From Gelidibacter algens (GTDB lineage: Bacteria > Bacteroidota > Bacteroidia > Flavobacteriales > Flavobacteriaceae), in NCBI RefSeq assembly GCF_001678675.1, contig NZ_LZRN01000004.1, positions 1 to 64,000 on the forward strand: a DNA stretch of 64,000 bases. Direction: 5' to 3'. Positions within the stretch are counted from its first letter, which is position 1, and every line of letters starts with the position of its first letter. The notes under the pieces are model-generated. The model had not been told where the DNA came from and ran no database searches. It saw only the letters and a program-made list of their open reading frames with translations. Position numbers and translations under genes: made by a program. This document shows positions 12,489 through 43,563 of the stretch, piece by piece.

Positions 12489-13511
12489 TCAACAAGAATT
12501 TCTGATAATTAAATTGGTTTCAATAATAATTTGTTGAGGTTCAATAGGTATGCCTTTGTTTTTGCAATCTATTTCATGAAGTACTATTTGAGCTGATTTA
12601 CTACCCATCTCAAAACCGTGTTGTTCTATGGAAGACAGTGAAGGGGTAAGTACCGAAGATACAAACCAATTACTAAAACCTATTAGAGCGATTCTTTCGG
12701 GAATCTTAATGCCGTTTGCATTAAAATAATCTATGGCGCCTATTGCTAACAAATCATTAACTGTAAATATGGCATCAACATTGTCGCCGTGATCTTGAAT
12801 CATCTTCTCGGCGTTGTTAAAGCCATCGGTAAAATCTGAGTTGCTATCACACATATAAACCAAAGATGAATCAAATTCAATGTCGTGATCAATTAAGGCC
12901 TTTTTATAACCTAAAAAACGATCAACCGAATTCTGCGGAATTAAGCCTCCTCTAAAATGTGCAATCCTTCTATATCCATGGTCAATGAGATAACTTACAG
13001 CTTCATAAGCTGCCTTTCTATCATCAACCTTAACTTTTGAGCAATTGATGTTTTTTGCAATTTTATCGAAAAGAACTAACGGAATACCCTGCACTCTTAT
13101 TTTTTCGAGGTGGTCTAAGCATACTGTGGTGTTTGACAACGAAATCAGAATCCCATCAACCCCCTTGTTTAAAAGTAACTCGACCTGTTTTTTCTCAATT
13201 TCATAATCTTCATTTGACTGCATTAAAATGACATTGTATTTCTTTTTATCAGCTTCTTCTAGAATACCTTTTATCACGTAAGAAAAAAAGTGATGAACTG
13301 TTTCAGGGATAATAACTCCAATGGTATTTGTTCTTTGAGATCTTAAGCTCACGGCACTACTATTGGGAACATAATTAAGTTCTGTTACTAAATTCCGAAC
13401 CTTTTCTTTTGTTTTTGCGCTGACATCTGGATAGTCTTTTAATGCTTTGGAAACAGTTGAGATAGATAGCCCTAATTGCTCTGCAATTTTTTTCAATGTA
13501 ATGGTTTCCAT
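12489..13511 (-). CDS. LacI family transcriptional regulator (first of two)
   Basis: The 340-residue protein has an N-terminal LacI helix-turn-helix and hinge helix (residues 4-56; LKKIAEQLGLSISTVSKALKDY, then YVPNSSAVSLRS) and a periplasmic-binding-protein-like sugar domain (NTIGVIIPETVHHFFSYVI from about residue 61). It is closely related to the second LacI protein encoded upstream of GH65 (both have VPE.VHHFFS and DDRKAA motifs), so the pair probably arose by duplication. It lies downstream of GH65 on the same strand and probably senses a sugar taken up by this locus. Confidence 0.92.
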   Translation of the reverse strand: METITLKKIAEQLGLSISTVSKALKDYPDVSAKTKEKVRNLVTELNYVPNSSAVSLRSQRTNTIGVIIPETVHHFFSYVIKGILEEADKKKYNVILMQSNEDYEIEKKQVELLLNKGVDGILISLSNTTVCLDHLEKIRVQGIPLVLFDKIAKNINCSKVKVDDRKAAYEAVSYLIDHGYRRIAHFRGGLIPQNSVDRFLGYKKALIDHDIEFDSSLVYMCDSNSDFTDGFNNAEKMIQDHGDNVDAIFTVNDLLAIGAIDYFNANGIKIPERIALIGFSNWFVSSVLTPSLSSIEQHGFEMGSKSAQIVLHEIDCKNKGIPIEPQQIIIETNLIIRNSC

Positions 13512-15778: not shown

Positions 15779-16819
15779 TCAAATTACAGGAGCCATTATT
15801 GCCCTGGTCGATTGTCTAATAATAACACTTGTTGGTATTTCAACTGTTTCTGAAGTGAACGGCTTTCCCTCTCTTTTGTGATTTAAATTTTTTAGTAAAA
15901 GTTGGAATGCGTTTCTGCCAATTTGATAACCAGGCTGATCTATAGTTGTCAAGGCGGGGGAGGTGGTTCTTGACATAAACCAGTTACTAAAGCCGATGAT
16001 GGAAACTTGCTTGGGTACTTTTATTTTATCTTCCTTTAAGCGTTTTAATACACCTATTGCAACAGGATCAATAAATGCAAAAATCCCGTCAATATCGGGA
16101 TGTTCGGCCATTATTTGGCCTGCAAGATTATAGCCGTCTTCAAAGGAAAGATTTTCACTGGTATAAATCAATGTTTTATTGAACGGCATATTATAGGTTT
16201 CGAGGGCGATTTTATAACCCATAAAACGGTCAATGGTAGTTTTGGGTTTTAGAGGCCCTGTGATATGGGCTATTTTTTTACAACCGGTTTTTATGAGATG
16301 CTCTGTGGCACTAAAAGCGGCTTTCCTATCATCTATAATCACCTTTGGGCAATCAATCAAATGGGTTATTTTATCAAATAGAACTACAGGCATCCCTTCA
16401 TTAATGATGGTCCTAATATGATCATATTTTACAGTCTTATCCGAAAGAGAGAGCATGATGCCATCAATATTTTTATCAACAAGTAATTTTAATTGCTTAA
16501 TCTCATCTTCGTAGGATTCATGAGATTGAAGTACAATAACAAGATAACCATGTTTTTCAGCTTCATTAATGGCGCCATCAATAATGCTTGAAAAAAAATG
16601 ATGTACCAATTCTGGCACCAAAATTCCAATTATTTTTGTTTCACGGCTTCTCAAACTTTGGGCAAAGGCGTTGGGTGTATAATTGTGTTTTTTAGCTAAT
16701 TCTTGCACCCTTATTTTAGTGTCGACATTGATGTCGGAATAATTTTTTAAAGCTTTTGAAACCGTAGAGGTTGAAATTCCTAAAATTTTCGAAATCTCTT
16801 TTAAAGTGATTTTGGACAT
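15779..16819 (-). CDS. LacI family transcriptional regulator (second of two)
   Basis: The 346-residue protein has a LacI DNA-binding domain (LKEISKILGISTSTVSKALKNY, residues 4-25, and hinge YTPNAFAQSLRS) and a sugar-binding domain starting near residue 60 (KIIGILVPELVHHFFSSII). It is transcribed away from susC, from a 360-bp intergenic region that holds the perfect LacI-type palindrome, so it is the prime candidate regulator of the locus and may also regulate itself. Family members usually repress and are released by a sugar; some Bacteroidota ones activate. Confidence 0.92.
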   Translation of the reverse strand: MSKITLKEISKILGISTSTVSKALKNYSDINVDTKIRVQELAKKHNYTPNAFAQSLRSRETKIIGILVPELVHHFFSSIIDGAINEAEKHGYLVIVLQSHESYEDEIKQLKLLVDKNIDGIMLSLSDKTVKYDHIRTIINEGMPVVLFDKITHLIDCPKVIIDDRKAAFSATEHLIKTGCKKIAHITGPLKPKTTIDRFMGYKIALETYNMPFNKTLIYTSENLSFEDGYNLAGQIMAEHPDIDGIFAFIDPVAIGVLKRLKEDKIKVPKQVSIIGFSNWFMSRTTSPALTTIDQPGYQIGRNAFQLLLKNLNHKREGKPFTSETVEIPTSVIIRQSTRAIMAPVI

Positions 16820-17179: not shown

Positions 17180-20100
17180 ATGAAACAAGATTTACTAAAA
17201 AAAGTCACCTGTGGCTTTTTCTTTCTTTTAGCGGGAATACTTCATTCTCAAACAATCAGTGGTATTGTATCAGATAATATGGGACCATTACCAGGGGTAA
17301 ACGTACTTGTTAAAGGAACGACCAATGGGGCACAAACTAACTTTGACGGAGAATATGAATTAAACAATGTGTCTTCAGACGCCGTGTTGGTGTTTAGCTT
17401 TGTTGGTTTTAAAACGCAAGAAGTTAATGTTGAAGGACGAAGTACTATCGACGTTACTTTAGCGGAAGATGCCGCTGTGCTTGATGAGATTGTATTGATT
17501 GGTTATGGTACGACCACAATTAAGGATGCCACTGGCGCGGTGAATACTGTGACTGCTGAAGATTTCAATGGAGGGGTTATCTCTTCTCCTGAACAATTGA
17601 TACAAGGTAAATCGGCTGGAGTACAAATTACTCAATCCAGTGGTGAGCCAGGTGCAGGAATTGCAGTCCGTATTCGTGGTACGTCATCTGTTAGATCTAA
17701 CAATAACCCATTATTTGTTGTGGATGGAATTCCACTTTCCGATGGTGGAACTCCCGGAGGTGGCGATTTAGGAGGTGGTGGAGGATCTGCCAGAAATCCA
17801 TTGAGCTTTCTCAATCCCAATGATATTGAAAGTATGACCATTTTAAAGGACGCCTCTGCTACCGCAATTTATGGTTCCAGAGGTGCAAATGGGGTCGTTA
17901 TTATTACTACAAAATCTGGTAAAAAGGGAGCTGGTGGTGTTTTTGAATTTACATCAAGTCAAAGCCATTCGTCAGTGGCTAACACCTATGACTTATTGGA
18001 TCGTGACCAGTATTTAGGGGCCATTGATCAATTTGGAGGTGATGCAGCGGCTGTGGATTTTGGCTCCAATACTAATTGGCAAAATGTTATTTTTAGGGAG
18101 GTGCTCAGTACTGACAACTCTTTGTCTTATGCCAATAATTATGGTCCGGGGTATGTTAGGGCTTCATTTGGTTATGTAAATCAACAAGGGGTTTTAGAAA
18201 ACTCATCCCAAGAGAGAATTACCGGAAGGGTGAACGCGTCGCATAAATTTTTCGATGAAAAATTAAAAATAGATGCGAACTTATCCTATTCAAGAGTCAA
18301 TGACGAATCGCCATTTGTTACAAGTACTTCTGGGTCACAAGGGGATTTGCTGGGCGCAACCTATTTTGCGAATCCTACATGGCCTAACAGTATTGGCTTT
18401 ACAAGTGGTGATGGAAAACTGAATCCAGCCCAACTATTGGAATATTATCAGGATTTAGCAAAGACAAATAGAGCTTTATTGAACGTATCTGCTGAATATT
18501 CTATCTTGGATAACCTACAAGCTAAAGTTAATCTAGGCTATGACGAATCTAAGAGCGATCGAACTCAAATTTTAACTGCTGATGTGGATGGTTTCAATAA
18601 TGGTACACCGGGCAATGGTAGGGGCATATTACAAGCGGTCAATGTGGAAAATAAATTAATGGATCTTACCTTAAATTATACCAAGGACTTTGAGAATTCA
18701 AATCTTGAAGTATTAGTCGGGTACTCCTTCCAAAGTTTTCAAAACTATGGATCGACGATTAATGGATTTGGATTAAACTCTCGGGATTTTAATCGAGCTG
18801 TATCGAATCTACAAAATTCGGCTAAAATTATCGGAAATTCCATCGATGTGCCATACCAACAATTTGGATTCAGCTCCAATGGACTTTTCATCAACCAGAT
18901 CGTTCCAGAGATCAATAGCAATGTGTCTCTCTCAGCACCCGGTGGAATAACTGTTAACTCGATAACTGGAGATTTATACGACAATACTGATGAGTTGCAA
19001 TCTTTGTTTACAAGATTAAATTATAAAATTGCAGACAAATATTTGTTCACGTTTACCTTGCGTGCTGATGGCTCTACCCGTTTTGGGCCTAACAATCAAT
19101 ATGGTTTCTTCCCCTCTGGTGCGTTCGCTTGGAAATTGCAGGAAGAAGATTTTATTCCGGAGGCATTTTCAACACTTAAATTACGTTTGGGTTATGGAAT
19201 CGTGGGTAATCAAGATGGTCTTGGATATGGAAATTTTGTAAGAAGACAACGTTTTGGTGGCGCTGGTATCGGCAATGGCGGTGAGGTCAATCCAAGCGGT
19301 TTTTCTTTGGTAGCTTTTGCCAATCCAGATTTGAAATGGGAATCAACAGCACAAGCGGGCATAGGTTTTGATTTTGGTTTTTTCAATGAACGATTGAATG
19401 GGTCCATTGATGTCTACCACAAAACTACTACCGATCTTTTATTGCAACAGGAAGCGGCCCAACCAACTCCTCAACCTTTTGTGTTTGGAAATCTTGACGC
19501 TAAAGTGATCAACAAAGGAATTGAATTTGCCATAAATTATGATGTGATTCAACAGGAGGATATGACTTGGAATGTTGGCTTTAATATCGCTTACAATAAA
19601 AATGAAGTTCAGGATTTTGACGGCTTGATTCAGACTGGTGCAATCAATGGAAATGGATTGACTGGCGCCTATGCGCAATTATTGGCAGAAGGTCAACCCT
19701 TATTTTCCTATTACTTAAGAGAATTTGGAGGCTATGATGCCAATGGAATTTCCATTTATCCAAATGGTGATAGACAGCAGTTTGTAGGTAAAAGTGCACT
19801 ACCTGATTATACATTGGGCATCTCTACAAGCTTTACATATAAAAGATTTAACTTCAACGCCTTTTTGACAGGACAGTATGGGCAATATATTTATAATAAT
19901 ACCGCCAACGCGTTTTTTACGGCGGGTATTATCAATTCTGGACAGAATGTGACTACCGATGTGTTGACAAATGGAGAATCTCCTTTAAATGCACCTGATG
20001 TGTCTACACGGTTTTTAGAAAAAGGTGATTTTTTAAGATTACAGAATGCATCTTTAGGTTATAATGTGCCAATTACGGGAACTGGTTTCTTTAAAACCTT

Positions 20101-20269
20101 TCGTTTGTCGTTAACCGGCCAGAATCTTTTTGTGATTACTCCTTATTCAGGATTGGATCCAGAGGTAGATACACCAAAATCACTTAATAACATTCCGTCT
20201 TCAGGAATTGATTATACAAGTTATCCAAGAGCGAAAACCTATACTTTCGGAATTAATGCAACTTTTTAA
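17180..20269 (+). CDS. SusC-like TonB-dependent outer-membrane transporter
   Basis: The 1,029-residue protein has a signal peptide (residues 1-24), a carboxypeptidase-regulatory-like domain (about 25-100; ISGIVSDNMGPLPGVNVLVKG), a TonB-box-like stretch DEIVLIGYGT, the plug domain (VRIRGTSSVRSNNNPLFVVDGIP and SILKDASATAIYGSRGANGV-like sequence) and a 22-stranded barrel ending KTYTFGINATF. With the adjacent SusD it would form the pedal-bin importer for an oligosaccharide. The downstream enzymes point to short alpha-glucosides. The LacI-type operator sits just upstream. Confidence 0.95.
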   Translation: MKQDLLKKVTCGFFFLLAGILHSQTISGIVSDNMGPLPGVNVLVKGTTNGAQTNFDGEYELNNVSSDAVLVFSFVGFKTQEVNVEGRSTIDVTLAEDAAVLDEIVLIGYGTTTIKDATGAVNTVTAEDFNGGVISSPEQLIQGKSAGVQITQSSGEPGAGIAVRIRGTSSVRSNNNPLFVVDGIPLSDGGTPGGGDLGGGGGSARNPLSFLNPNDIESMTILKDASATAIYGSRGANGVVIITTKSGKKGAGGVFEFTSSQSHSSVANTYDLLDRDQYLGAIDQFGGDAAAVDFGSNTNWQNVIFREVLSTDNSLSYANNYGPGYVRASFGYVNQQGVLENSSQERITGRVNASHKFFDEKLKIDANLSYSRVNDESPFVTSTSGSQGDLLGATYFANPTWPNSIGFTSGDGKLNPAQLLEYYQDLAKTNRALLNVSAEYSILDNLQAKVNLGYDESKSDRTQILTADVDGFNNGTPGNGRGILQAVNVENKLMDLTLNYTKDFENSNLEVLVGYSFQSFQNYGSTINGFGLNSRDFNRAVSNLQNSAKIIGNSIDVPYQQFGFSSNGLFINQIVPEINSNVSLSAPGGITVNSITGDLYDNTDELQSLFTRLNYKIADKYLFTFTLRADGSTRFGPNNQYGFFPSGAFAWKLQEEDFIPEAFSTLKLRLGYGIVGNQDGLGYGNFVRRQRFGGAGIGNGGEVNPSGFSLVAFANPDLKWESTAQAGIGFDFGFFNERLNGSIDVYHKTTTDLLLQQEAAQPTPQPFVFGNLDAKVINKGIEFAINYDVIQQEDMTWNVGFNIAYNKNEVQDFDGLIQTGAINGNGLTGAYAQLLAEGQPLFSYYLREFGGYDANGISIYPNGDRQQFVGKSALPDYTLGISTSFTYKRFNFNAFLTGQYGQYIYNNTANAFFTAGIINSGQNVTTDVLTNGESPLNAPDVSTRFLEKGDFLRLQNASLGYNVPITGTGFFKTFRLSLTGQNLFVITPYSGLDPEVDTPKSLNNIPSSGIDYTSYPRAKTYTFGINATF

Positions 20270-20275
20270 AAATAT

Positions 20276-21805
20276 ATGAAAATGAAAAACACAATTAAAT
20301 GGCTATTCGTATCGGTGCTCTTTGCTGGGTTAAGCTGTACAAATTTAGAAATCGAACCCACGGATTCATTTTTTGATCCGTCTTTATCTAGCGAATTTTC
20401 AGGGGTAAACCCAGCAGCGTCATTGGATGGGTTATATAGTGCCATGAGAGGGCAAATTGAAGATCAGGCAAATTTTTACGCCTTGGCAGAAGTTTCATCT
20501 GATGAATTGTTGGTCCCTACAAGAGGAATCGATTGGGGAGACAATGGGGTGTGGCGTAACCTACATGACCATAACTGGGATGCGGTACATTCTTACGTTA
20601 AAAATACCTGGAACAATTTAAACCAAAATATATTCAATGCAACGTTGATTATTGATTCTAGAAGTGGTGGTTCTCCACAGCAGGTTGCTGAAGCGAAATT
20701 TTTGAGAGCTTTCAATACCTACTGGCTTACGGATTTTTACGGTCAGGCGCCATTTAGAACTCCTGATGAAGGACCAGATGTCAATCCTTCTGTGAAAACT
20801 AGGGCGGAAGCTTTTGAGTTTGCGGTGCAGGATTTAATGGAAGCACTTCCTGATTTGCCCGCTTCTGGTCCAGGTGCCTCACTCAATCGAGCATCCAAAG
20901 CATCTGCGCATTATTTATTGGCAAAATTATACCTTAACAAATTTATATTTTTAGGGACTTCTCCTGATGCCGCAGATATGAATAAGGTGATTGAATATGT
21001 TGATGCTATCTCCGCACAAGGATTTGCTTTAGAAGGTGGTTATTTTGACTTGTTTACAGAAGCAGTAGATTCAGAAACTATATTTTTTACAACCTCAAGT
21101 GTTGGAAATAGAATATGGAATACTTTGCATTACAAACAAAATGCCCCAGGGAATGATGGTGGCGGCTGGAATGGATTTACGACGTTATCAGAATTTTACG
21201 ATTTATTTGAAGGAGACCCTAATTCTAACGAACTAGGATCTGGACAAGAGGAGCGTCGAGGTTTTGTTCCAACAGACGGGTCGCATTTCGGAATCGGATA
21301 TGGTTTTTTAGTTGGTCAACAATACGACGAAACAGGTACTGCCATGACAGATAGAACTGGTAATCCGTTGGTGTTTACAAAGGAGTTACCGGGTCTTTTA
21401 GGGAATAATGAACGTACGGGAATCAGGGTCATTAAATACCACCCAGAAAATGGTTCTTTTGCAAACCATGAAGTTGTTTTTAGATATGCAGATGCACACT
21501 TGATGAAAGCTGAAGCTATTTTGAGAGGTGGTGCTTCAGGAAGTACACCATTGCAACTAGTAAATCAGCTAAGAACTTTAAGACTTGCTTCGCCAATGAC
21601 AACCGTCACTGAACAGTCATTATTAGATGAAAGAGGGCGTGAGCTGTATGGTGAATTCTGGAGACGGAATGATCAAATCAGATTTGGAAAGTTTTCTGAA
21701 CCTTGGCAGTATAAAACCAATACAGATGCTTTCAGGGTATTATATCCAATTCCTTCAACCGCGTTGATTTCAAATCCTAATTTAGTGCAAAACCCCGGAT
21801 ATTGA
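20276..21805 (+). CDS. SusD-like glycan-binding lipoprotein (RagB/SusD family)
   Basis: The 509-residue lipoprotein has a signal ending at a lipobox (FAGLSC, Cys about 20), TPR-like helices (EAKFLRAFNTYWLTDFYGQAPF) and the C-terminal ending NPNLVQNPGY common to this family. It forms the lid over the SusC barrel and binds the incoming glycan. It begins 6 bp after susC and is followed by a strong hairpin terminator, so susCD may be transcribed more than the genes after it. Confidence 0.95.
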   Translation: MKMKNTIKWLFVSVLFAGLSCTNLEIEPTDSFFDPSLSSEFSGVNPAASLDGLYSAMRGQIEDQANFYALAEVSSDELLVPTRGIDWGDNGVWRNLHDHNWDAVHSYVKNTWNNLNQNIFNATLIIDSRSGGSPQQVAEAKFLRAFNTYWLTDFYGQAPFRTPDEGPDVNPSVKTRAEAFEFAVQDLMEALPDLPASGPGASLNRASKASAHYLLAKLYLNKFIFLGTSPDAADMNKVIEYVDAISAQGFALEGGYFDLFTEAVDSETIFFTTSSVGNRIWNTLHYKQNAPGNDGGGWNGFTTLSEFYDLFEGDPNSNELGSGQEERRGFVPTDGSHFGIGYGFLVGQQYDETGTAMTDRTGNPLVFTKELPGLLGNNERTGIRVIKYHPENGSFANHEVVFRYADAHLMKAEAILRGGASGSTPLQLVNQLRTLRLASPMTTVTEQSLLDERGRELYGEFWRRNDQIRFGKFSEPWQYKTNTDAFRVLYPIPSTALISNPNLVQNPGY

Positions 21806-24800: not shown

Positions 24801-25172
24801 ACACAAGTTTTTGAACTGGCATCGTGTTATTTTGAGAATACCAACGGAACATTCAAAAAACGTAACTTACCCTTATTGACACAAATATCCACCGTCAATG
24901 ATATCATGGTTGATGACGTCAATCAAGATGGCTTTTTGGATTTAATATTAGTGGGTAACAATATCCATATCAACACACAACTGGGACGATTGGATGCATC
25001 CTATGGACAGTTGCTATTGAACAATAAAAATGGGTTTTTTTATATGGAAAACCCAAATTTGGAGATCTCTGGGCAATCAGAACATATTGCCAAAGTAAAA
25101 ATTAAAAACAAAAACTATTATATCATTTCAAGAAATAATGACACGCCAATTTTTTTATCAAAAAATATGTAA
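21883..25172 (+). pseudogene. CRTAC1-like FG-GAP/ASPIC-UnbV lipoprotein 1, split by a frameshift at an A8 tract
   Basis: Two frames, 21883-23244 (453 aa) and 23316-25172 (618 aa), together encode one lipoprotein of about 1,096 residues like its two downstream paralogues. The break is at A8 23201-23208: moving by one base there restores a continuous reading (YFYRNNGNLTFENVTK, then SFSNGAVYADLDNDGDLD). Part one has a lipobox (LVFGCS), FG-GAP/VCBS blades with calcium-type DINNDGLLDIY and DYDLDGDLD loops; part two begins with the ASPIC/UnbV domain and a second propeller. It is likely a surface-exposed calcium-dependent binding protein; ligand unknown. Whether this is a true mutation, transcriptional slippage or a base-count error cannot be told from one sequence. 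Its 3' end overlaps the next gene by 35 bp. Confidence 0.8.
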
Positions 25173-34134: not shown

Positions 34135-36267
34135 ATGAAAAAAATCATCAACCCATATTACTGGATAGTGCTTTTAATCATATCAGTCTCATGCGACACG
34201 CCAAAAGAAGACTTAACTGCCAATTCTCCAGACAGCAACATTCACGTTGAATTCGGATTGTCAAAAACAGGGCAACCGTTCTATTTGGTTTCCCATAAGG
34301 ACAATACGGTCATCGACACCTCCTATATGGGTTTTGATTTTAAGGATGTGCCATCCCTGAAGGACAATTTCAAGGTGGTTTCCTCTAGCAAAGCAACCAA
34401 GGATGAAACATGGCAACTGCCGTGGGGTGAGGTTTTGGATGTCCGCGATAATTACAATGAATTGGTGGTTTATCTAGAAGAGCAATCAGACTTGAAAAGA
34501 CAAATGACCATTCATTTTAAGGTTTACAATGATGGCGTTGGTTTTCGCTATGAAGTTCCGGCGCAGGATAATTTGAAAGACGTTTTAATTACGGATGAAA
34601 ACACGGAATTCAATTTAACCGGCGACCACAACGTATGGTGGATTCCTGGAGATTGGGACATTTATGAGCATCTATATAACGAAACAAAATTCTCCAAGAT
34701 TGATGCCATTTCAAAACGTGACCATCCCAACCTGAATGCCTCGTACATTCCAGAAAATGCAGTGAACACCCCTGTAACCATGAAAACTGATGATGGATTG
34801 TATTTGAGTTTTCATGAAGCCGATTTGACCAATTACGCCGGAATGACCCTTAAGGTTGATCCTCAAAATCTAAACATGGTCAGTGAACTTGTGGGCTCTG
34901 AGCGCTTAGGCGGTAAAGCAAAACTGACCGTACCTTTTGAGACCCCATGGCGAACCATTCAAATTGCAGAGAAAGCCGGTGATTTATTGGAATCCAACAT
35001 GCTGTTGAATCTTAACGACCCGAACGCTATTGGCGATGTCAGTTATGTTACACCTATGAAATACGTCGGTATTTGGTGGGAGATGCACATCGGCAAATCC
35101 ACATGGGATATGGAAGGCAGTCAGGATATGAATACCTACACCCTTGGAAAAGCGGGTACATCAAAGCATGGCGCAACCACGGAAAATGCAAAAACATATA
35201 TCGATTTTGCGTCACAGAATGGTATCAAAGGATTGCTGGTTGAAGGTTGGAACACGGGTTGGGACAAATGGATCAATACCGATGATAGAGAAGGCGTGTT
35301 CGATTTTATGACCCCTTATCCAGATTATGATTTTGATGAAGTGATGCGTTATGCCAAGGAAAAAGGTGTTGAAGTCATTATGCACCATGAAACATCCGCA
35401 GCTCCAAGAACCTATGAAAAACAGATGGATGAGGCCTATGATTTTATGAAGAAAAATGATATCAATTCCGTAAAAACAGGCTATGTAGGTAAAATAATTC
35501 CCAGCGGAGAATACCATCACGGGCAATGGATGGTCAACCATTATCAAAAAGTGATTGAAGAGGCCGCTAAAAAGAAAATAGCAGTCAATGCCCATGAACC
35601 CATTAAAGACACTGGCAAGCGAAGAACCTATCCCAATGAAATCTCAAGGGAAGGTGCGCGAGGGCAAGAATTCAATGCTTGGGCGACAGACGGCGGGAAT
35701 CCACCAAACCATTTGCCTACAGTTGCCTTTACGCGAATGCTCTCTGGCCCTTTCGATTTTACACCTGGGGTTTTCAACATCAAATTTGACGACTATAAAA
35801 AAGACAATCAGGTCAACACCACCTTGGCGCATCAATTGGCCTTGTATGTCGTCATTTACAGTCCGATCCAAATGGCAAGCGACTTACCTGAACATTATTT
35901 GGTGGACGGTAAAATCCATCCTGCATTCCAATTTATTACCGATGTGGGCGTCGATTGGCAACAAACCAAAGTTCTGGATGGCGAAGTAGGCGATTTTGTA
36001 ACCATTGCAAGGCAGGAACGCGGCACAGACAATTGGTTTGTTGGAGGCATAACAGATGAAAACGGACGCACTGAAACCCTGACGTTTGACTTTCTTGAAG
36101 AGGGAACAACCTATACCGCTCGCATATATAAAGATGGCCCCGATGCCCATTGGGATACAAATCCTCAAGATTATGCCATAGAAGAAATGGAATTGACCAA
36201 GGCGTCTAAATTGGATATTCCTTTGGCTCCCGGTGGCGGATTTGCCATTAGTATCCTTAAAAAATGA
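34135..36267 (+). CDS. GH97 alpha-glucosidase lipoprotein, SusB-type inverting
   Basis: The 710-residue protein has a lipobox (LIISVSC), an N-terminal beta-sandwich, a (beta/alpha)8 barrel and a C-terminal beta domain. Glu419 (HHETSA), Glu488 (NAHEPIKDTG) and Glu512 (GARGQEFNAW) have the same spacing (69 and 24) as Glu439, Glu508 and Glu532 of B. thetaiotaomicron SusB, so it is of the inverting, Glu-base, calcium-dependent type rather than the retaining Asp type. It removes glucose from the non-reducing end of alpha-glucosides in the periplasm or at the outer membrane. It is in the operon that continues to the GH13_18 gene. Confidence 0.93.
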   Translation: MKKIINPYYWIVLLIISVSCDTPKEDLTANSPDSNIHVEFGLSKTGQPFYLVSHKDNTVIDTSYMGFDFKDVPSLKDNFKVVSSSKATKDETWQLPWGEVLDVRDNYNELVVYLEEQSDLKRQMTIHFKVYNDGVGFRYEVPAQDNLKDVLITDENTEFNLTGDHNVWWIPGDWDIYEHLYNETKFSKIDAISKRDHPNLNASYIPENAVNTPVTMKTDDGLYLSFHEADLTNYAGMTLKVDPQNLNMVSELVGSERLGGKAKLTVPFETPWRTIQIAEKAGDLLESNMLLNLNDPNAIGDVSYVTPMKYVGIWWEMHIGKSTWDMEGSQDMNTYTLGKAGTSKHGATTENAKTYIDFASQNGIKGLLVEGWNTGWDKWINTDDREGVFDFMTPYPDYDFDEVMRYAKEKGVEVIMHHETSAAPRTYEKQMDEAYDFMKKNDINSVKTGYVGKIIPSGEYHHGQWMVNHYQKVIEEAAKKKIAVNAHEPIKDTGKRRTYPNEISREGARGQEFNAWATDGGNPPNHLPTVAFTRMLSGPFDFTPGVFNIKFDDYKKDNQVNTTLAHQLALYVVIYSPIQMASDLPEHYLVDGKIHPAFQFITDVGVDWQQTKVLDGEVGDFVTIARQERGTDNWFVGGITDENGRTETLTFDFLEEGTTYTARIYKDGPDAHWDTNPQDYAIEEMELTKASKLDIPLAPGGGFAISILKK

Positions 36268-36303
36268 ACCATGTAACTCTTTGATTAACTAATTCATAAG
36301 CAA

Positions 36304-37647
36304 ATGAAATTCACTAAACCAAGCCTTTCTTTTTGGCAGATTTTTAATATGAATGTTGGATTTTTAGGAATTCAATACAGTTTTGGTTTGCAACAAACAG
36401 CCATCAATCCTATTTTTTTGTATTTGGGAGCGCCAGAGGATATGTTGCCAATTTTAAATATCGCCGGTCCTGTAACAGGATTGATTGTCCAGCCAATCAT
36501 CGGTGCCATGTCAGATAAAACATGGTCCCCACGTTGGGGACGACGAAAACCTTATTTTTTGATAGGCGCGCTGTTGGGTAGTTTGAGTTTATTTGTATTC
36601 CCGCATAGTCCTGTGCTTTGGTTTGCCGTTGGATTATTATGGATTTTAGATGTGGGAAATAACATGGCCATGGAACCCTATCGCGCATTTGTAGGCGATA
36701 AATTACCAGATAAACAATTGAGTTTAGGCTACCAAATGCAAAGTTTATTTGTTGGGGCAGGAATTCTATTGGCAAATGGATCCATCGTCTTGTTTCAATA
36801 TTGGTTCGGTGGCGATCCTGCTGAGGAATCAAGTGGCATTCCACATTGGCTCTATTATTCTTTTATTATTGGTGCTTTTCTATCGCTCGCCACTATTCTG
36901 TGGTCTGTATTGAAAACACCTGAAATCCCACCTACCGATGAAGAATTGGTGGAAATCAATAAAATCAAAGGCCTTCCCGTTGGCAAACAGATTTCACAAC
37001 CCTTTTTGGAAATTGCTAAATCCATTAAGGAAATGCCAAAATTCATGTGGAAAATTGGTGCGGTCTATCTATTTCAATGGTATGCGCTTTTCATTTATTG
37101 GCAATTCACTACGCCATTGTTCAAGTTGACTTTAGGATTTTCAACGTCAGAGGCGGCTTCCCAAGCGGCTAAAATGAGTTTAACTTATAATATTGTAACA
37201 ATGTTGGTGGCCCTGGCCTTAGTGCCTTTGACGGTCAAATATGGCGGAAAAATAGTATATGCCTTAAGTTTGATAGGTACGGCAATCGCCTTGTTTACGA
37301 TACCGTACATTTCTGACCCAACCTTAGTGCTTTTGCCAATGGTTTTATTCGGAATCGGTTGGGCGGCTATGATGGGAATTCCATATACCATGGTTTCGAA
37401 AATTGTTCCCCAAGAGCGACGAGGTGTTTATATGGGCATCTTGAATATGATGATTGTCATCCCGATGTTTATCCAAACCTTGACCTTTGGTCCTATTTAT
37501 AAATATCTGTTGGGAGGCAATGCCATCAATGCCATGTTATTTGCAGGCGTGTTTTTCACGATTGCCGCCTTACTTGCCTTCCGATTGAATGAGTCAAAAA
37601 TGAATCGTGAAATCGTGGGACATCAATTAACTAAAAGCGGGCATTAA
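36304..37647 (+). CDS. MFS/GPH-type sugar transporter (maltose/sucrose-like)
   Basis: The 447-residue protein has about twelve hydrophobic segments and features of the SUT/SLC45-like glycoside transporters: LQQTAINPIFLYLGA in helix 1, SDKTWSPRWGRRKPY in the loop 2-3, and LDVGNNMAMEPYRAF in helix 4. It probably carries a disaccharide (such as maltose, sucrose or trehalose) through the inner membrane with protons or sodium. Its position before the cytoplasmic trehalase and GH13_18 supports import of intact disaccharides. Confidence 0.88.
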   Translation: MKFTKPSLSFWQIFNMNVGFLGIQYSFGLQQTAINPIFLYLGAPEDMLPILNIAGPVTGLIVQPIIGAMSDKTWSPRWGRRKPYFLIGALLGSLSLFVFPHSPVLWFAVGLLWILDVGNNMAMEPYRAFVGDKLPDKQLSLGYQMQSLFVGAGILLANGSIVLFQYWFGGDPAEESSGIPHWLYYSFIIGAFLSLATILWSVLKTPEIPPTDEELVEINKIKGLPVGKQISQPFLEIAKSIKEMPKFMWKIGAVYLFQWYALFIYWQFTTPLFKLTLGFSTSEAASQAAKMSLTYNIVTMLVALALVPLTVKYGGKIVYALSLIGTAIALFTIPYISDPTLVLLPMVLFGIGWAAMMGIPYTMVSKIVPQERRGVYMGILNMMIVIPMFIQTLTFGPIYKYLLGGNAINAMLFAGVFFTIAALLAFRLNESKMNREIVGHQLTKSGH

Positions 37648-37657
37648 CACAGCAACC

Positions 37658-38887
37658 ATGAAAAATCTACCCATCAAAATATCAATTTACCTCAATTATT
37701 TTGTCTTCGCCATCTTATTGAATAGCGTTGGTATTGTCATTGCCAAATCCATTAATGTGTACCATGTAAGTGAGTCACAGGCCTCGCTGTTGGAAGCGTT
37801 CAAAGATTTGCCTATCGCCATCGTCTCGTTTTTAGTGGCTTCGTTTCTGCCCAGATTTGGGTACAAAAACGCAATGTTGACAGGTTTGGCAATTGTATTC
37901 TTTGGGTGTTTATTAATGGTTTACGGCAACACATTTGCCTATACAAAAATTCTATTTATGTCCATCGGCGTGAGTTTTGCATTGATTAAATTATCAGTGT
38001 ATTCCCTTATCGGCATCATTACTGAATCAAAAAGTGAACACGCGTCCTTGATGAGTTCCATTGAAGGCTTTTTTATGGTAGGCATTGCGTTCGCTTATAT
38101 CTTATTTCCTTTCTTTTATTCAGAAGATGAAAACTCATGGCTTAATGTCTATTATGTTTTATGTGGACTTATTCTATTGTCTTTCCTCTTCCTTCTTTTT
38201 TCAAAAATTGAATATCAGGTGGAAGCGATTGGTTCCAGCTTAAAGGAAGATTTAAAAGCATCGGCTAAATTGATGGTCGTGCCATTGGTGTTGGTGTTTA
38301 TCATATCAGCCTTTTTGTTCGTGATGATAGAGCAGGGTATTATGACTTGGTTGCCAAGGTTCAATGAGAAAATTTTCTTATTTTCTGAAAAATTAAGCGT
38401 TCAGATGGCCATCATCTTTGCCTTGTCATTAGCGCTCGGAAGGTTCGTGGCCGGGTATCTGACAAAACGAATGTCTTGGGTGTATTTAGTCATCGTTTGC
38501 ATCGTGATTTCTGGAGGAATTCTGCTGGTCGTTTTACCACAATTGGAAGGAAACTCTGAATCGATGGGTGAAATTACAAGCTTATCTGGAGTGCCATTAT
38601 TAGGATTTATTCTGCCATTGATTGGCTTGTTCATTGCTCCAATTTATCCGCTTTTAAATTCAACAGTTTTGAGTTCCTTGCCAAAAAGTCTGCATTCGCC
38701 CATGTCTGGATTGATTATTATATTTTCTGCTCTAGGTGGTACAATTGGCTCAAGGATTGTGGGCGAATTGTTCGAAAGTATTGGTGGAGCAAATGCGTTT
38801 TATTTCCTTTTGATTCCTATGGGATTATTGATTGCTTCGGTGTTTTTAATAGATAGAATGTCAAAACAAAAACAATTGAAATCATGA
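37658..38887 (+). CDS. MFS transporter (FucP/sugar-permease-like)
   Basis: The 409-residue protein has about twelve hydrophobic segments and MFS character (LPRFGYKNAMLTGLAIVFFG, LALGRFVAGYLTKRMS). It resembles the FucP-like group often used for monosaccharides. It starts 10 bp after the previous transporter and its end overlaps the trehalase start by 4 bp. A monosaccharide such as glucose or fructose released in the periplasm is a possible substrate; this is inference. Confidence 0.8.
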   Translation: MKNLPIKISIYLNYFVFAILLNSVGIVIAKSINVYHVSESQASLLEAFKDLPIAIVSFLVASFLPRFGYKNAMLTGLAIVFFGCLLMVYGNTFAYTKILFMSIGVSFALIKLSVYSLIGIITESKSEHASLMSSIEGFFMVGIAFAYILFPFFYSEDENSWLNVYYVLCGLILLSFLFLLFSKIEYQVEAIGSSLKEDLKASAKLMVVPLVLVFIISAFLFVMIEQGIMTWLPRFNEKIFLFSEKLSVQMAIIFALSLALGRFVAGYLTKRMSWVYLVIVCIVISGGILLVVLPQLEGNSESMGEITSLSGVPLLGFILPLIGLFIAPIYPLLNSTVLSSLPKSLHSPMSGLIIIFSALGGTIGSRIVGELFESIGGANAFYFLLIPMGLLIASVFLIDRMSKQKQLKS

Positions 38888-40749
38888 TATTCTCATTAAA
38901 CATAGAGTTCACTTTAAAAGCATTGTTATCTCAAGAAGATACCGATAACGACAAAAGAATTACCATTGAAGATGCTGGCCCAAAATCTTTCAAGATAATT
39001 TCCAATTCCAATATTGCCCATACTATAGAAGGAACGTATCACTTATCAAATTTGATGCAAGAACTTGTGTATGCCAAAAATAAGGGACTTACTGTTGCCG
39101 AGATACCACTTTCAAAAATTGAAGAATTGCCAGCAACACGAATTTCAAGAATCATTACCAATTATTTATGGGCAGGTCTTACGAGAACTATTGATGAAAA
39201 CGGCATTGAACACCTTATTCTGGATTCAAAAAACGAGTCGCTGGTGGCACAAAAACTTCGGATTTATGTGCCGTTCAAAGACACTTTAGCCTATAACTAT
39301 TACAGCAAACTTGAGAAAAGACTTCCTGTTGAGGTCATTTATCTGCCGGAAAACATCACACCTGAATTTGTCAAATCCATCAATGAGCAGCCTGGTATTT
39401 TATCCTTAAAATTAGTAGAAGAAAATAACGCGTGCAAAGGCGTGCCGTTCGTAGTTCCAGGTGGACGTTTTAATGAAATGTATGGTTGGGACAGTTATTT
39501 TGAGTCCGTTGGACTCATTGTCGATGGTAAAGTAGAATTGGCTAAAGCGATGACCGATAATTTTCAATATGAAATAAACCATTACGGAAAAATACTAAAT
39601 GCTAACCGTACCTATTATCTCACCCGTACCCAACCGCCCTTCTATTCCAGTTTGATTCTGGAAGTGTATGAGGTCACCAAAGATAAGGAATGGCTACAAA
39701 GCCATCTCAAAACAGCCATTAAGGAATACGAGACCGTTTGGATGGTACAGGGAAAACGCTTGGTGGATACTTGTTTAAACCGCTATTTGGCAGAAGGTAT
39801 TGGGATGCCGCCAGAAACTGAACAGGGTCATTTCGACGCCGTGGTTAAACCGTATGCAGAAAAGGCAGGGCTCTCCATTGACGATTATTTGGCCCACTAT
39901 ACTTCAGGCGCTATCAAAAACCCTGAACTGGACGCCTATTTTATCCAAGACCGCAGTGTCCGGGAATCGGGACATGATACCTCTTACCGCATTGAGGGCA
40001 ATTGCGCCGATTTGAATTTGGTGGAATTAAATGCAATGCTTTATAAATACGAGACTGATTTTGCCCAACTCATAAAAGATGAATTCAATGATGACTTTAA
40101 ACTTGATTTGAACTCTTATTCGAGTGAATATTGGTTAAAAAAGGCTCATGAAAGACAGGAATTGGCCAATAAATTTCTTTGGAATGACGATAAAGGACTG
40201 TATCTCGATTATAATTTCAAAACAAAAACACAATCCGATTATGTGGCCGCGACCACTTTAGTGCCGCTATGGTCTAAAATGGCATCCGAACAACAGGCAA
40301 AACGTTTGGTAGAAACAGCCTTGCCATTACTTAAAGAGCGTGGTGGAATAGCTGCTTCCACGGAAGAAAGCAGGGGTGAAATTTCAGATAACCGACCAGC
40401 ACGGCAATGGGATTACCCAAATGGATGGGCGCCACACCAAATGATGATTTGGAAGGGCTTATTGAACTATGGATATAAGGACGAAGCCCAAGAACTGATG
40501 TATCGATGGCTCTACATGATTACCAAGAACGCTGTGGATTACAATGGCACCATCCCAGAAAAATACGATGTCGTAGCAGCAACCCACAAAGTATTTGCCG
40601 AGTACGGCAATGTAGGCACCAATTTCGAATACATCACGAATGAGGGATTTGGCTGGATGAATGCCTCCTACCAGTATGGATTATCCTTATTGGGAGACAG
40701 CTACATTAAAGACCTGAATCATCTGAAAGACCCAGAATTGGTTTTTTAG
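38884..40749 (+). CDS. GH37 trehalase, cytoplasmic
   Basis: The 621-residue protein shows both GH37 signatures: PGGRFNEMYGWDSYF (about residues 196-210) and QWDYPNGWAPHQ (about 510-521). The proposed catalytic acid is Asp365 in ESGHDTSYR and the base Glu582 in NFEYITNEGFGWMN, matching E. coli trehalase Asp312 and Glu496. No signal peptide is seen, so it hydrolyses trehalose to glucose in the cytoplasm. The first ATG overlaps the MFS gene by 4 bp (ATGA), a sign of translational coupling. Confidence 0.92.
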   Translation: MIFSLNIEFTLKALLSQEDTDNDKRITIEDAGPKSFKIISNSNIAHTIEGTYHLSNLMQELVYAKNKGLTVAEIPLSKIEELPATRISRIITNYLWAGLTRTIDENGIEHLILDSKNESLVAQKLRIYVPFKDTLAYNYYSKLEKRLPVEVIYLPENITPEFVKSINEQPGILSLKLVEENNACKGVPFVVPGGRFNEMYGWDSYFESVGLIVDGKVELAKAMTDNFQYEINHYGKILNANRTYYLTRTQPPFYSSLILEVYEVTKDKEWLQSHLKTAIKEYETVWMVQGKRLVDTCLNRYLAEGIGMPPETEQGHFDAVVKPYAEKAGLSIDDYLAHYTSGAIKNPELDAYFIQDRSVRESGHDTSYRIEGNCADLNLVELNAMLYKYETDFAQLIKDEFNDDFKLDLNSYSSEYWLKKAHERQELANKFLWNDDKGLYLDYNFKTKTQSDYVAATTLVPLWSKMASEQQAKRLVETALPLLKERGGIAASTEESRGEISDNRPARQWDYPNGWAPHQMMIWKGLLNYGYKDEAQELMYRWLYMITKNAVDYNGTIPEKYDVVAATHKVFAEYGNVGTNFEYITNEGFGWMNASYQYGLSLLGDSYIKDLNHLKDPELVF

Positions 40750-40821
40750 AGTTTATTATGAAACTGCTTTGGTAAAAAAGGCATAGCAACACATTGAATG
40801 TTTGACAGGAAATCTAAATAA

Positions 40822-41784
40822 ATGAAGGATTTGAAAATAAACAGGAACAAACTTGATGCAAGAACGATAGATATACTATGCGTTGGGGAAGTGCTCATTG
40901 ATTTTATAGGGCATCAATCGGCCGTTGGTATTGATGAAACAAGGGATTACCACCGATATCTGGGAGGCTCTCCTACAAACGTCGCCATGAATTCAGAACG
41001 ATTGGGTTTAAAGGCGCTGATGGTGGCAGCGGTAGGCAATGATGGCTTTGGAGACTATATTTTTAAAAGGTTTTCCGAAATCAGTATTACTACAGATTAT
41101 ATTGTCAGGCATGAAGACAAAGCTACCAGTGTTATTTTTGTGTCCAAATCTGAAGGCACGCCCGATTTCATTCCTTATCGCGATGCGGATTACTGTATCG
41201 ATGAAACACAAATACCACAGGACATCCTTTCCGACACTAAAATATTCCACACCACCTGTTTCGCATTGAGTAAAAAACCTGCGCAATCCACCATTCTGAA
41301 AAAAGCAGCGGAAGCCTTTCATCTGGGTTGTCAATTGAGTATTGATGTCAACTACGCCAAAAAGTTATGGGACAGCAAGAAGGAGGCGCTTGATGTTATC
41401 AAGGCCTACTGTAAATTCAATCCGTTGGTCAAAATCAGCGAGGATGATATGGAACGTCTTTTTGAACGTCATTTGCCCCACACCGACATTTTCGAATTTT
41501 TTCATGCTGAAGGCGTGGACACCGTATGTCTGACCCTTGGAAGCAAAGGCGTTAAACTCTCACAAAAAGGCCAACCGCTGATTGAATTGCCTGCCATCAA
41601 AGTTGAAAAAGTTTTGGACACCACAGGCGCTGGAGATGCATTCTGGTCTGGATTTTTATTCGCCTTTATCAAACAAAAACCTATCGATGAATGTTTGAAA
41701 GTCGCCTTGCAACTGGCGGCCCTAAAGCTTCAGAATGTTGGAAGGCTGCCTGATAACATCACCATTCTTTCAAAACTTTTATAA
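40822..41784 (+). CDS. PfkB-family sugar kinase, probable fructokinase
   Basis: The 320-residue protein has PfkB signature 1 near residue 48 (YLGGSPTNVAMNSERLG) and signature 2 DTTGAGDAFWSGF (about 268-280) with the catalytic Asp. It uses ATP to phosphorylate a sugar. The neighbour is a GH13_18 phosphorylase, whose sucrose-type reaction releases fructose, so fructokinase is the best guess; a KDG- or IolC-like activity cannot be excluded by sequence alone. It lies 72 bp after the trehalase and 9 bp before the phosphorylase. Confidence 0.85.
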   Translation: MKDLKINRNKLDARTIDILCVGEVLIDFIGHQSAVGIDETRDYHRYLGGSPTNVAMNSERLGLKALMVAAVGNDGFGDYIFKRFSEISITTDYIVRHEDKATSVIFVSKSEGTPDFIPYRDADYCIDETQIPQDILSDTKIFHTTCFALSKKPAQSTILKKAAEAFHLGCQLSIDVNYAKKLWDSKKEALDVIKAYCKFNPLVKISEDDMERLFERHLPHTDIFEFFHAEGVDTVCLTLGSKGVKLSQKGQPLIELPAIKVEKVLDTTGAGDAFWSGFLFAFIKQKPIDECLKVALQLAALKLQNVGRLPDNITILSKLL

Positions 41785-41793
41785 TTTATTCGT

Positions 41794-43563
41794 ATGGATG
41801 ACAACACCCAAAACACGGTCAATACCCCCGAAAACACTCAGGTGTTTAACGGTGTCATGCTCAACGCCTATCCTGATAGTATTGGCAAAAATTTGAGTGA
41901 TGCAATAGAGATGCTCAAAATGGCTGAAATGAAGGACGTTTTTTCATTATTTTATGTCTTGCCCACCTTTTTCAACAGCGATTTGGACAGGGGGTTTTCA
42001 ATCGTGGATTATGACCTCAATGAAGCCTTGGTGTCACCCGAAGATTTGTCTGCTTTGGAGGACCTCCATATCATGTTGAAATTGGATATTGTTTTAAACC
42101 ATCTATCGGTGGCGTCCCCTCAATTTAAAGATTTGTTGCAACATGGCGAGGCATCAATATATAAGGACTTTTTTATCAATTGGAACGAATTTTGGGACGG
42201 CCATGGTACGATGTCAGCAGATGGCGCCATGATTCCTGATGTTGAATTTCTGAACAAACTGTTCATGAGAAAACCCGGACTTCCAGTGTTGAAGGTGCTT
42301 TTTCCTGACGGAAACGAAAAACCATTTTGGAATACCTTTTACCAAAGCATACACTATCATGAGATTGCTATTGAAGATTTAAAAGGGCTAAAAATTTCCA
42401 GTACTGATGAAATGCGTGTGATATGCGAAAAAGTAAATAGCGCAATCGTTAAAAACGAAGATTTCAAAAGCATTGATTTTGGCTTAAACAACCACTTTAA
42501 AAGTGACATCATACAAATCGTCGAAAAAAAGCGAACCTATTTAGGTCAAATGGATGTGAATGCCAAATCTGATTTGGTTTGGGAATTTTATGAAGAAACG
42601 CTTTCAAAATTAAACCATTTTGGATGCAAAATTCTGCGCTTGGATGCCTTTGCCTATTTACACAAGCAAGTTGGACAAACCAATTTTTTCAACAAACCCG
42701 GCACTTGGGAGTATCTGGAACGCATCAAACAGATGGCAGAACGCAATAAGCTGATGGTCTTGCCCGAAATCCATGCCGAATATGGACTTGGCTTACATGA
42801 TGAGGTCGCCAAAAAGGGGTATCCCATTTATGATTTTTTCTTACCGGGCTTAATGATTCACACCCTTGAAAATGGCAGCAGCAAAGCCCTTATAAGTTGG
42901 GTAACCGAAATTATTGCGGAAGATTACAAAACCGTTAATATGCTCGGTTGCCATGACGGCATCCCTGTTTTGGATTTAAAGGGTAAGGAAGTGGATGGCA
43001 CTTATAACAAAGGTTTGCTAGAAGATGCCGACATTGAAGCCATCATGGAAACCATCATGGCGCGTGGTGGTCGCGTTAAAAATCTGTATGATCCGGCGGG
43101 AAGAAAAATTTCATATTATCAGGTAAACGCTACTTTTTTCAGTGCTTTGGGTGAAGACGAGCGCAAATTGCTGTTGGCGAGAGCCATTCAAATGTTTATG
43201 CCAGGAATTCCACAGGTCTGGTATTTGGACCTATTTGCCGGGAAGAACAACTACGCAGCTGCCGATCAAGGCGGAAGTGCGGGACACAAGGAAATCAATC
43301 GCACCACACTCACAATGGATGCCATTGAAAAGGGGCTGAAAACGCCCATTGTACTCAACCAATTAAAACTGATGCGATTGCGAAACACGTCGAAAGCCTT
43401 TCTGGGGAAGGTATCCATCAACAACACGCCTGACCATGAATTGGATATGACATGGACCTTAGGGAAAGATAGTGTACGGTTAAAGGCAAACTTAAAGAGC
43501 TACGATTTCACAATAGAGCAGACCACTTTGGGGATAGCGGAAAGAATTATTTTTCAGGATTAA
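41794..43563 (+). CDS. GH13_18 sucrose-phosphorylase-like enzyme
   Basis: The 589-residue cytoplasmic protein keeps the GH13 catalytic triad: Asp284 (LRLDAFAY), Glu325 (VLPEIHAEY) and Asp388 (LGCHDGIPVLD). Other stretches match sucrose phosphorylases (LDIVLNHLSVASPQFKDLL, MPGIPQVWYLDLFAGKNNY). Phosphorolysis would give glucose 1-phosphate plus fructose from sucrose. The subfamily also contains glucosylglycerol, glucosylglycerate and sucrose 6'-phosphate phosphorylases, and this protein is about 85 residues longer than the Bifidobacterium enzyme, with the extra chain before Asp284. Specificity is therefore open. It is the last gene of the locus. Confidence 0.87.
   Translation: MDDNTQNTVNTPENTQVFNGVMLNAYPDSIGKNLSDAIEMLKMAEMKDVFSLFYVLPTFFNSDLDRGFSIVDYDLNEALVSPEDLSALEDLHIMLKLDIVLNHLSVASPQFKDLLQHGEASIYKDFFINWNEFWDGHGTMSADGAMIPDVEFLNKLFMRKPGLPVLKVLFPDGNEKPFWNTFYQSIHYHEIAIEDLKGLKISSTDEMRVICEKVNSAIVKNEDFKSIDFGLNNHFKSDIIQIVEKKRTYLGQMDVNAKSDLVWEFYEETLSKLNHFGCKILRLDAFAYLHKQVGQTNFFNKPGTWEYLERIKQMAERNKLMVLPEIHAEYGLGLHDEVAKKGYPIYDFFLPGLMIHTLENGSSKALISWVTEIIAEDYKTVNMLGCHDGIPVLDLKGKEVDGTYNKGLLEDADIEAIMETIMARGGRVKNLYDPAGRKISYYQVNATFFSALGEDERKLLLARAIQMFMPGIPQVWYLDLFAGKNNYAAADQGGSAGHKEINRTTLTMDAIEKGLKTPIVLNQLKLMRLRNTSKAFLGKVSINNTPDHELDMTWTLGKDSVRLKANLKSYDFTIEQTTLGIAERIIFQD

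Follow-up and report, generated by a model that had tools for sequence, protein, structure and literature searches.

Sucrose 6F-phosphate phosphorylases (SPPs) of subfamily GH13_18 use a substrate whose source, apart from the phosphotransferase system (PTS), is called "currently unknown" in excerpts of a 2020 review (PMC7178133). The same excerpts distinguish members of the subfamily by a segment termed loop A, which reads N(L/V)D(I/L/V)YQ in sucrose phosphorylases (SPs), GFDVHQ in promiscuous SPPs, KXXYYQ in strict SPPs and VGAIYQ in glucosylglycerol phosphorylases (GGoPs); glucosylglycerate phosphorylases (GGaPs) are marked by (T/S)ETN at strand 5 together with a loop A Glu. The characterized KXXYYQ-type enzymes, RgSPP and IcSPP, are described there as strict. 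In IcSPP, according to excerpts of a second report (PMC6720575), Arg152, Lys364 and Lys434 bind fructose 6-phosphate, and single replacements of these residues make the enzyme active on fructose, glycerol or D-glycerate. In this report, we describe a candidate supplier for such an enzyme, encoded in a 64,000-nucleotide stretch of DNA from Gelidibacter algens (contig NZ_LZRN01000004.1, positions 1 to 64,000; hereafter, the window). Its genomic context indicates that a PfkB-family kinase encoded directly upstream of a GH13_18 phosphorylase is probably an ATP-dependent sucrose 6F-kinase that acts on O6 of the fructosyl unit.

Both genes belong to a run of six co-directional genes at positions 34135-43563, which were identified from open reading frames (ORFs) and from Pfam and NCBIfam matches, and which are separated, in order, by gaps of 36, 10, -4, 72 and 9 bases:

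34135..36267, plus strand: GH97 alpha-glucosidase of SusB (inverting) type, with a lipoprotein-like N-terminus as judged by eye (PF10566, 327 bits)
36304..37647, plus strand: SUT-like transporter of the major facilitator superfamily (MFS), probable sucrose permease (PF07690; TIGR01301, 98.6 bits, cut-off 511)
37658..38887, plus strand: second MFS transporter (PF07690)
38884..40749, plus strand: GH37 trehalase of fungal neutral (Nth1) type, with no obvious signal peptide by eye (PF01204, 471.9 bits; PF07492)
40822..41784, plus strand: PfkB-family sugar kinase, proposed sucrose 6F-kinase (PF00294, 162.6 bits)
41794..43563, plus strand: GH13_18 phosphorylase, very probably an SPP of strict IcSPP type (TIGR03852 sucrose_gtfA, 325.7 bits, slightly below the cut-off of 334.4)

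We propose that the cluster imports and degrades nonreducing alpha-glucosides, chiefly sucrose and trehalose. SusC and SusD proteins encoded 5' of the run would carry sugar over the outer membrane, and the MFS transporters would carry it over the inner membrane; GH97 (and a GH65 enzyme encoded nearby) would trim alpha-glucosyl decorations, probably in the periplasm. A cytoplasmic GH37 enzyme would split trehalose into two glucose molecules. The kinase would phosphorylate sucrose at O6 of its fructosyl unit, and the phosphorylase would use phosphate to cleave sucrose 6F-phosphate, yielding glucose 1-phosphate and fructose 6-phosphate; these could enter glycolysis directly, with neither PTS nor invertase required. 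We consider sucrose to be a likely substrate of the locus, and trehalose to be equally likely. For the scheme as a whole, in which sucrose passes through the kinase and then the SPP, we express a modest preference; the kinase substrate, transporter specificities, enzyme locations and any regulation are predicted from family membership and context.

The GH13_18 phosphorylase and its fingerprint

Among solved structures, the closest relative of the window GH13_18 protein is the I. coccineus SPP (6s9u, 665 bits), and the next scores 295 bits. Loop A of the window protein, KISYYQ, fits the strict-SPP pattern and does not fit that of SPs, and its residues R159, K429 and K499 align with Arg152, Lys364 and Lys434 of IcSPP. 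A fingerprint of seven residues (R159, K429, K438, Y441, Y442, Q443 and K499) was followed through an alignment of 107 rows, comprising the window protein, 99 SPP homologues from sister loci (described later), one SPP of Agathobacter rectalis and six SPs from Flavobacteriaceae. Six pairs among the 99 represent one locus fetched twice, which leaves 95 distinct SPPs, including those of the window and A. rectalis. None of the 99 sister-locus homologues departs from the window protein at any of the seven positions, which are conserved also in A. rectalis, whereas the six SPs differ at five of the seven, where they have P, L or R, N, L and R. In our sample of 199 Flavobacteriaceae genomes, seven carry an SP at 30-35% identity to the query; one copy (in genome G150) is split over two frames, and all six full-length copies have NLDLYQ as loop A.

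The first-pass annotation of this DNA, which was made from the letters alone, had suggested that the enzymes scavenge osmolyte alpha-glucosides, including glucosylglycerol, and had pointed out that GGoPs and GGaPs share subfamily GH13_18 with this protein. However, VGAIYQ appears in none of the 107 aligned rows, window included, nor does (T/S)ETN, and the relevant loop A position is Gln rather than Glu in the window protein and in 99 of 99 homologues. We therefore rejected a GGoP or GGaP identity, and regard phosphorolysis of glucosylglycerol or glucosylglycerate by this enzyme as highly improbable. Because every one of the 99 homologues retains the fingerprint and SPs depart from it at five positions, the protein is very probably an SPP, as far as sequence can indicate. 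Thus, comparison of active-site loops with characterized members, which the annotation had recommended, leads to the SPP type. Of the substrates it had named, sucrose is retained, in view of the SPP, the SUT-like transporter and compact sister loci, as is trehalose, in view of GH37.

The PfkB kinase and its partners

Sister loci were collected in two sets, which have six loci in common. One consists of 80 named loci, namely the best 80 of 440 SPP relatives; these are Bacteroidota by title, and we take nearly all of their genera to be Flavobacteriaceae. The other contains 19 further loci. Within flanks of 10-20 kb, each neighboring gene was labeled after the window or reference gene that it matched best in BLAST; because several contigs are short, counts of neighbors are lower bounds. 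In 76 of the 80 named loci (the exceptions are L050, L065, L109 and L117), a PfkB gene lies directly upstream of, and co-directional with, the SPP gene; it is also directly upstream in 18 of the 19 further loci (the exception is L039, whose genome, G167, carries the kinase elsewhere, at L170). Among the 199 genomes, an SPP with at least 55% identity is present in 20, and the PfkB clade (at least 49% identity; next matches at most 32%) is present in 37, including all 20 SPP genomes. By contrast, the clade was found in none of the seven genomes with a true SP. A plain fructokinase should be equally useful beside an SP, so its absence there favors a kinase that acts on sucrose.

An SPP with its kinase, or an SP without the kinase, seems to occupy one chromosomal site with the same flanking genes (L025, L215-L218). 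This correspondence between the flanks of four SP genomes and those of compact SPP loci was judged from gene lengths and by eye, and names of flanking genes, such as RuvB, QueG, MaeB and RuvA, were likewise read by eye.

The window genome (size 4.5 Mb, completeness 99.99%) yielded no match to PTS_EIIC (PF02378, the sole PTS family searched), GH32N, GH100 or the sucrose-phosphate phosphatase family (S6PP), and no GT4 protein resembling sucrose-phosphate synthase (SPS) at a threshold of 1e-60 among the 8 of 21 candidates that were scored. Neither MFS gene of the locus reaches an NCBIfam cut-off for a phosphosugar importer.

An AlphaFold2 model of the kinase (predicted local distance difference test score 89.5) has the PfkB fold. 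In a search with this model, the 50 rows listed are all PfkB/ribokinase-like kinases, with Z scores of 33.6-39.8; the fructokinase 5eyn is in rank 11, and 3hj6 is in rank 37 with Z 34.3, so the fold does not tell the substrate. The kinase scores below the NCBIfam fructokinase cut-off (NF006957, 119.7 bits versus 450), and its top NCBIfam score is to the iolC model (172.5 bits versus a cut-off of 300). Three fructokinase-like kinases linked to GH32 genes also fall below the NF006957 cut-off (91-97 bits), and thus this model does not settle the substrate.

The same kinase clade has a second partner. Among the 17 kinase-clade genomes that lack an SPP, 16 carry in the kinase locus a gene of GH100, the alkaline/neutral invertase family; in 10 of these it lies directly upstream of the kinase gene, and in the other 6 it is located farther upstream. 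In the seventeenth (G194), the GH100 gene is on another contig. The encoded proteins of these loci have 386-413 residues, and all 16 can be aligned; the five that were tested match PF12899 with 52-77 bits. Within the flanks, this GH100 is in none of the 99 SPP loci, and SPP is in none of the 18 loci collected for comparison. Across the sample, GH100 proteins with at least 36% identity to the query occur in 19 genomes, 17 of which have the kinase clade.

In a tree of the kinases, SPP-linked and GH100-linked copies are interleaved, and well-supported branches force at least three changes of partner; this tree covers 56 of 117 rows (34 of 95 SPP-linked copies), its bootstrap was unsettled, and the program warned that two long branches meet. 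A single clade of SPP-linked kinases was rejected in a topology test (approximately unbiased test, p = 2.6e-28) of 30 rows, which include 14 of the 95 SPP-linked copies and were picked after the 56-row tree had been seen. From these patterns, a single role for the kinase beside either partner is most likely. That role could be to supply both with sucrose 6F-phosphate, to phosphorylate fructose (in which case the SPP would not be strict), or to carry out both reactions. A sucrose kinase is favored by the fingerprint of the SPP and by the lack of the clade beside SPs, a fructokinase by the name of the GH100 family and by the best solved relative of the kinase. The exchange of SPP and GH100 around the kinase also supports a sucrose kinase, since a strict SPP has no use unless its phosphorylated substrate is produced.

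Alternative explanations

Several observations weigh against the proposed scheme. The clade shares its locus with GH100 in 16 of 17 SPP-less genomes, and a fructokinase would be the natural partner if this GH100 cleaves plain sucrose. Two genomes (G088 and G154) hold GH100 proteins of a second type (36-38% identity to the query) without the clade, and so GH100 does not always need this kinase. Only kinase positions 128 and 164 separate SPP-linked from GH100-linked copies under our filter (above 90% in 95 SPP-linked and below 30% in 16 GH100-linked copies). The best solved relative by sequence is an H. orenii entry labeled 'fructokinase' (3hj6, 200 bits), and the fold search is headed by IolC (2qcv, Z 39.8), followed by 2-keto-3-deoxygluconate kinases at about 38. 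Five of the 99 loci (L039, L050, L065, L109 and L117) have no adjacent PfkB gene, and a genome-wide search was made for L039 only. One of the seven SP genomes has a fructokinase-like gene (31% identity) two genes downstream of the SP gene (L213), and the remaining SP genomes may use unlinked fructokinases. SPS-like GT4 genes occur in 16 of the 199 genomes, including 8 of the 20 SPP genomes. Finally, the compact sister loci lack GH37 and GH97, which implies that trehalose use is an added module.

The PfkB protein could be an ordinary fructokinase, with the GH13_18 enzyme cleaving plain sucrose, despite its fingerprint, to glucose 1-phosphate and fructose, which would then become fructose 6-phosphate. 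This arrangement would suit both the label of 3hj6 and the GH100 invertase-like partners. The protein could also be the sole PfkB-family fructokinase of the window genome, given that none of the other three PfkB genes has a fructokinase-like reference as its best match. However, the strict-SPP residues are kept in all 99 homologues and differ at five of seven positions in SPs of the same family, RgSPP and IcSPP of this type are strict according to the review excerpts (PMC7178133), and the clade is missing from seven of seven SP genomes. Moreover, relatives with large loci offer another candidate for the local fructokinase. Of 13 such loci whose upstream ends were compared (6 with SPP, 6 with GH100, and that of G167), 12 have GH32 there and 8 have a second PfkB gene, which is fructokinase-like and in 7 of the 8 accompanied by GH32; the SPP-linked kinase therefore need not be the local fructokinase. 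(Three of the eight second PfkB genes were scored, and none reaches an NCBIfam cut-off. The corresponding end in the window has GH65 in place of GH32.) We judge an ordinary fructokinase to be unlikely. It is possible, if doubtful, that PfkB is a broad enzyme that phosphorylates O6 both of free fructose and of the fructosyl unit of sucrose, and so serves GH100 or SPP alike. This explanation overlaps our own, and it agrees with the interleaved tree, the repeated exchange of partners and the near lack of separating positions, but not with the absence of the clade beside SPs, where free fructose also arises. Counting both strict and broad forms, we lean toward a kinase that acts on sucrose in the window locus, irrespective of any additional activity on fructose. 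The more specific proposal is tentative: that PfkB, as an ATP:sucrose 6F-phosphotransferase, provides the missing supply of substrate for strict SPPs, and that the GH100-like replacements are then sucrose 6F-phosphate hydrolases.

Sucrose 6F-phosphate might instead come from elsewhere, through import of the ready-made compound or synthesis by an SPS-type enzyme, and be recycled by the SPP. An endogenous source is possible in those genomes with an SPS-like gene, but 12 of the 20 SPP genomes, including that of the window, have none at 1e-60, and the lack of S6PP and PTS_EIIC matches in the window genome and the sub-cut-off importer scores of its MFS genes make such an origin quite improbable here. 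A further explanation, which we consider improbable, takes the region to be an alpha-glucan locus for branched, dextran-like chains, to which sucrose and trehalose enzymes were added. A GH65 kojibiose hydrolase and a SusB-like GH97 do co-occur in the FjDexUL locus, according to excerpts of PMC10316084, and GH13 is present in a few sister loci (6 of 80 by one reference and 3 by another, both references being Pfam-assigned). However, no GH66 or GH31 dextranase was recognized among the region proteins scanned, and the conserved core of the sister loci consists of SUT, PfkB and SPP.

In the one SPS-like neighborhood that was examined (L243:168-3552), the SPS-like GT4 gene adjoins a gene for a fused S6PP-GH100 protein.

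The larger locus and described systems

The six-gene run is part of a larger SusC/SusD region that spans 12.5-43.6 kb. On the same strand, 5' of the run, are genes for SusC, SusD, four FG-GAP proteins and smaller products; to the left, and divergent, are two LacI regulators and GH65. The SusC/SusD pair qualifies the region as a polysaccharide utilization locus. The additional features are as follows:

12489..13511, minus strand: LacI-family regulator LacI2 (PF00356/PF00532)
13582..15615, minus strand: GH65 kojibiose hydrolase with an N-terminal signal-like stretch read by eye (NF053734, 1071.8 bits, cut-off 800)
15779..16819, minus strand: LacI-family regulator LacI1, divergent from susC (PF00356/PF00532)
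17180..20269, plus strand: SusC-like TonB-dependent receptor (PF00593, PF07715, PF13715)
20276..21805, plus strand: SusD-like protein (PF07980, PF14322)
21883-23244, 23316-25172, 25138-28509 and 28475-31741, plus strand: four FG-GAP proteins of 453-1123 amino acids (PF13517; three with ASPIC/UnbV, PF07593)

The GH97, GH37, PfkB and GH13_18 genes had been placed correctly by the first-pass annotation, which had overlooked the two MFS genes (36304-37647 and 37658-38887) and had put GH65 within the run, where it does not belong: it ends 18.5 kb to the left of position 34135. The kojibiose-hydrolase assignment of GH65 is borne out by its score against the NF053734 equivalog.

Three other features were observed in or near the region. 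At 31748-33071, two ORFs (295 and 158 amino acids, the second PAP2) match a single ORF of about 440 amino acids in relatives, for example at L043:982-2304, and the window copy looks frameshifted. At the left edge (10617-11831) is a tyrosine recombinase (Arm-DNA-bind_5, Phage_integrase), which hints at a mobile segment. A second GH65 gene lies shortly beyond the end of the window (G000:C4:69235-70335), adjoining a putative starch locus at 55.8-64 kb, which was covered here at the level of ORFs.

Sister loci occur in two layouts. The compact layout comprises LacI, a TonB receptor, often a glutaredoxin-like gene, the SUT-like MFS, PfkB and SPP; relatives of LacI2 head these loci, and a LacI gene that best matches LacI2 is present in 41 of the 80 named loci. 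The large layout, to which the window belongs, has SusC/SusD, FG-GAP/ASPIC, often GH97, the SUT-like MFS, a second MFS, GH37, PfkB and SPP, in somewhat variable order. Among the named loci, homologues were counted for the SUT-like MFS in 74, the second MFS in 25, GH37 in 28 and GH97 in 9. The SUT-like protein, which weakly resembles GPH/SUT sucrose-proton symporters, is a probable sucrose permease. The glutaredoxin-like gene (PF00462), which lies between the TonB receptor and the SUT-like MFS at L025:9330-9683, has a homologue in 18 of the named loci. FG-GAP/ASPIC proteins recur 3' of susCD in large sister loci and are possible surface sugar-binding proteins.

The nearest named SPP relative, among the best 80 of 440, is from Subsaximicrobium wynnwilliamsii (88% identity), and G013, the other genome of the window's genus among the 199 sampled, has no SPP match. 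In a phylum-wide search, 6 of 395 genomes, including that of the window and all from one family, had an SPP of at least 68% identity; one named locus is labeled as a Saprospiraceae metagenome-assembled genome. Outside Bacteroidota, a plasmid search gave only A. rectalis above 50% identity among the 30 of 337 records listed. The cluster is found in genera known from marine habitats and also in many Flavobacterium species, so that the possible use of osmolytes from marine phototrophs, which the first-pass annotation suggested, is not distinguishing.

The best solved matches of GH97 are alpha-glucosidases; it scores 641 bits against SusB and at most 182 against retaining alpha-galactosidases. It has the K(T/S)GY motif (as VKTGYVG), which excerpts of PMC2670981 define, with Gly469, for the inverting subfamily, and a hand count on the alignment matches E419, E488, E506 and E512 with SusB Glu439, Glu508, Glu526 and Glu532. 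An alpha-galactosidase identity, to which its sole NCBIfam match refers (283 bits versus a cut-off of 800), is ruled out by the similarity to SusB and by this motif. The enzyme thus belongs to the broad SusB-type class of alpha-glucosidases, which gives no pointer to osmolytes; its close SusB relative FjGH97A cleaves alpha-1,6, 1,4, 1,3 and 1,2 glucobioses but not trehalose, according to excerpts of PMC10316084.

If the proposed scheme is correct, Flavobacteriaceae would have a route for sucrose that runs through a kinase and a phosphorylase and needs no PTS, and GH100-like enzymes that replace SPP beside the same kinase would be sucrose 6F-phosphate hydrolases. Annotations would also change, because the present matches, below cut-offs, are to sucrose phosphorylase for one protein and to iolC or fructokinase for the other. 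The tie between PfkB and SPP across the family makes the question of substrate source directly testable with two proteins.

The individual parts of the locus resemble several described systems. GH37 scores 609 bits against the neutral trehalase entries 5jta and 5n6n, with other trehalases listed at 123-155 bits, and it carries the Ca-binding domain PF07492. We take these entries, labeled 'Neutral trehalase', to be Nth1 of Saccharomyces cerevisiae; the catalytic and Ca-binding domains align over 600 residues, whereas the window protein is bacterial, has a shorter N-terminus and sits in a sugar-uptake operon. A limited literature search on bacterial neutral trehalases found nothing on Bacteroidota.

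As read from excerpts, FjDexUL of Flavobacterium johnsoniae likewise combines a GH65 kojibiose hydrolase and a SusB-like GH97 in a SusC/SusD locus (PMC10316084), but no GH66 or GH31 was found in the window region, which has sucrose and trehalose enzymes instead. The sux genes of Xanthomonas campestris (SuxA, SuxB, SuxC and SuxR), as excerpted from PMC1790865, place a TonB receptor, a LacI repressor and an inner-membrane permease around one sucrose-cleaving enzyme, and so resemble the compact loci. The sux enzyme is an amylosucrase-type sucrose hydrolase, whereas the sister loci have a kinase and an SPP. The window copy shares the receptor, MFS and LacI components with sux and adds SusC/SusD, GH97 and GH37; its sucrose enzyme is very probably the GH13_18 SPP instead of an amylosucrase.

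The SPP itself shares with IcSPP (6S9U) and RgSPP the KxxYYQ loop A, the phosphate-binding Arg, Lys and Lys, and the catalytic triad, with the A. rectalis homologue aligned in place of RgSPP. Its neighborhood differs, consisting here of a TonB receptor, a SUT-like MFS and PfkB, and in A. rectalis of an ABC transporter and an alpha-galactosidase gene. The new point of this report is the prediction that a PfkB-family sucrose 6F-kinase feeds the SPP; a limited literature search gave no description of a sucrose kinase from this family. The closest precedent is AgaSK of R. gnavus, a sucrose kinase encoded beside an SPP. As described in excerpts of PMC7688924, AgaSK is a GH36 fusion protein with a Walker A motif, and it phosphorylates the glucose unit at C6, so that its product is not the SPP substrate. 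The window kinase, by comparison, belongs to the PfkB family, and its predicted product is sucrose 6F-phosphate.

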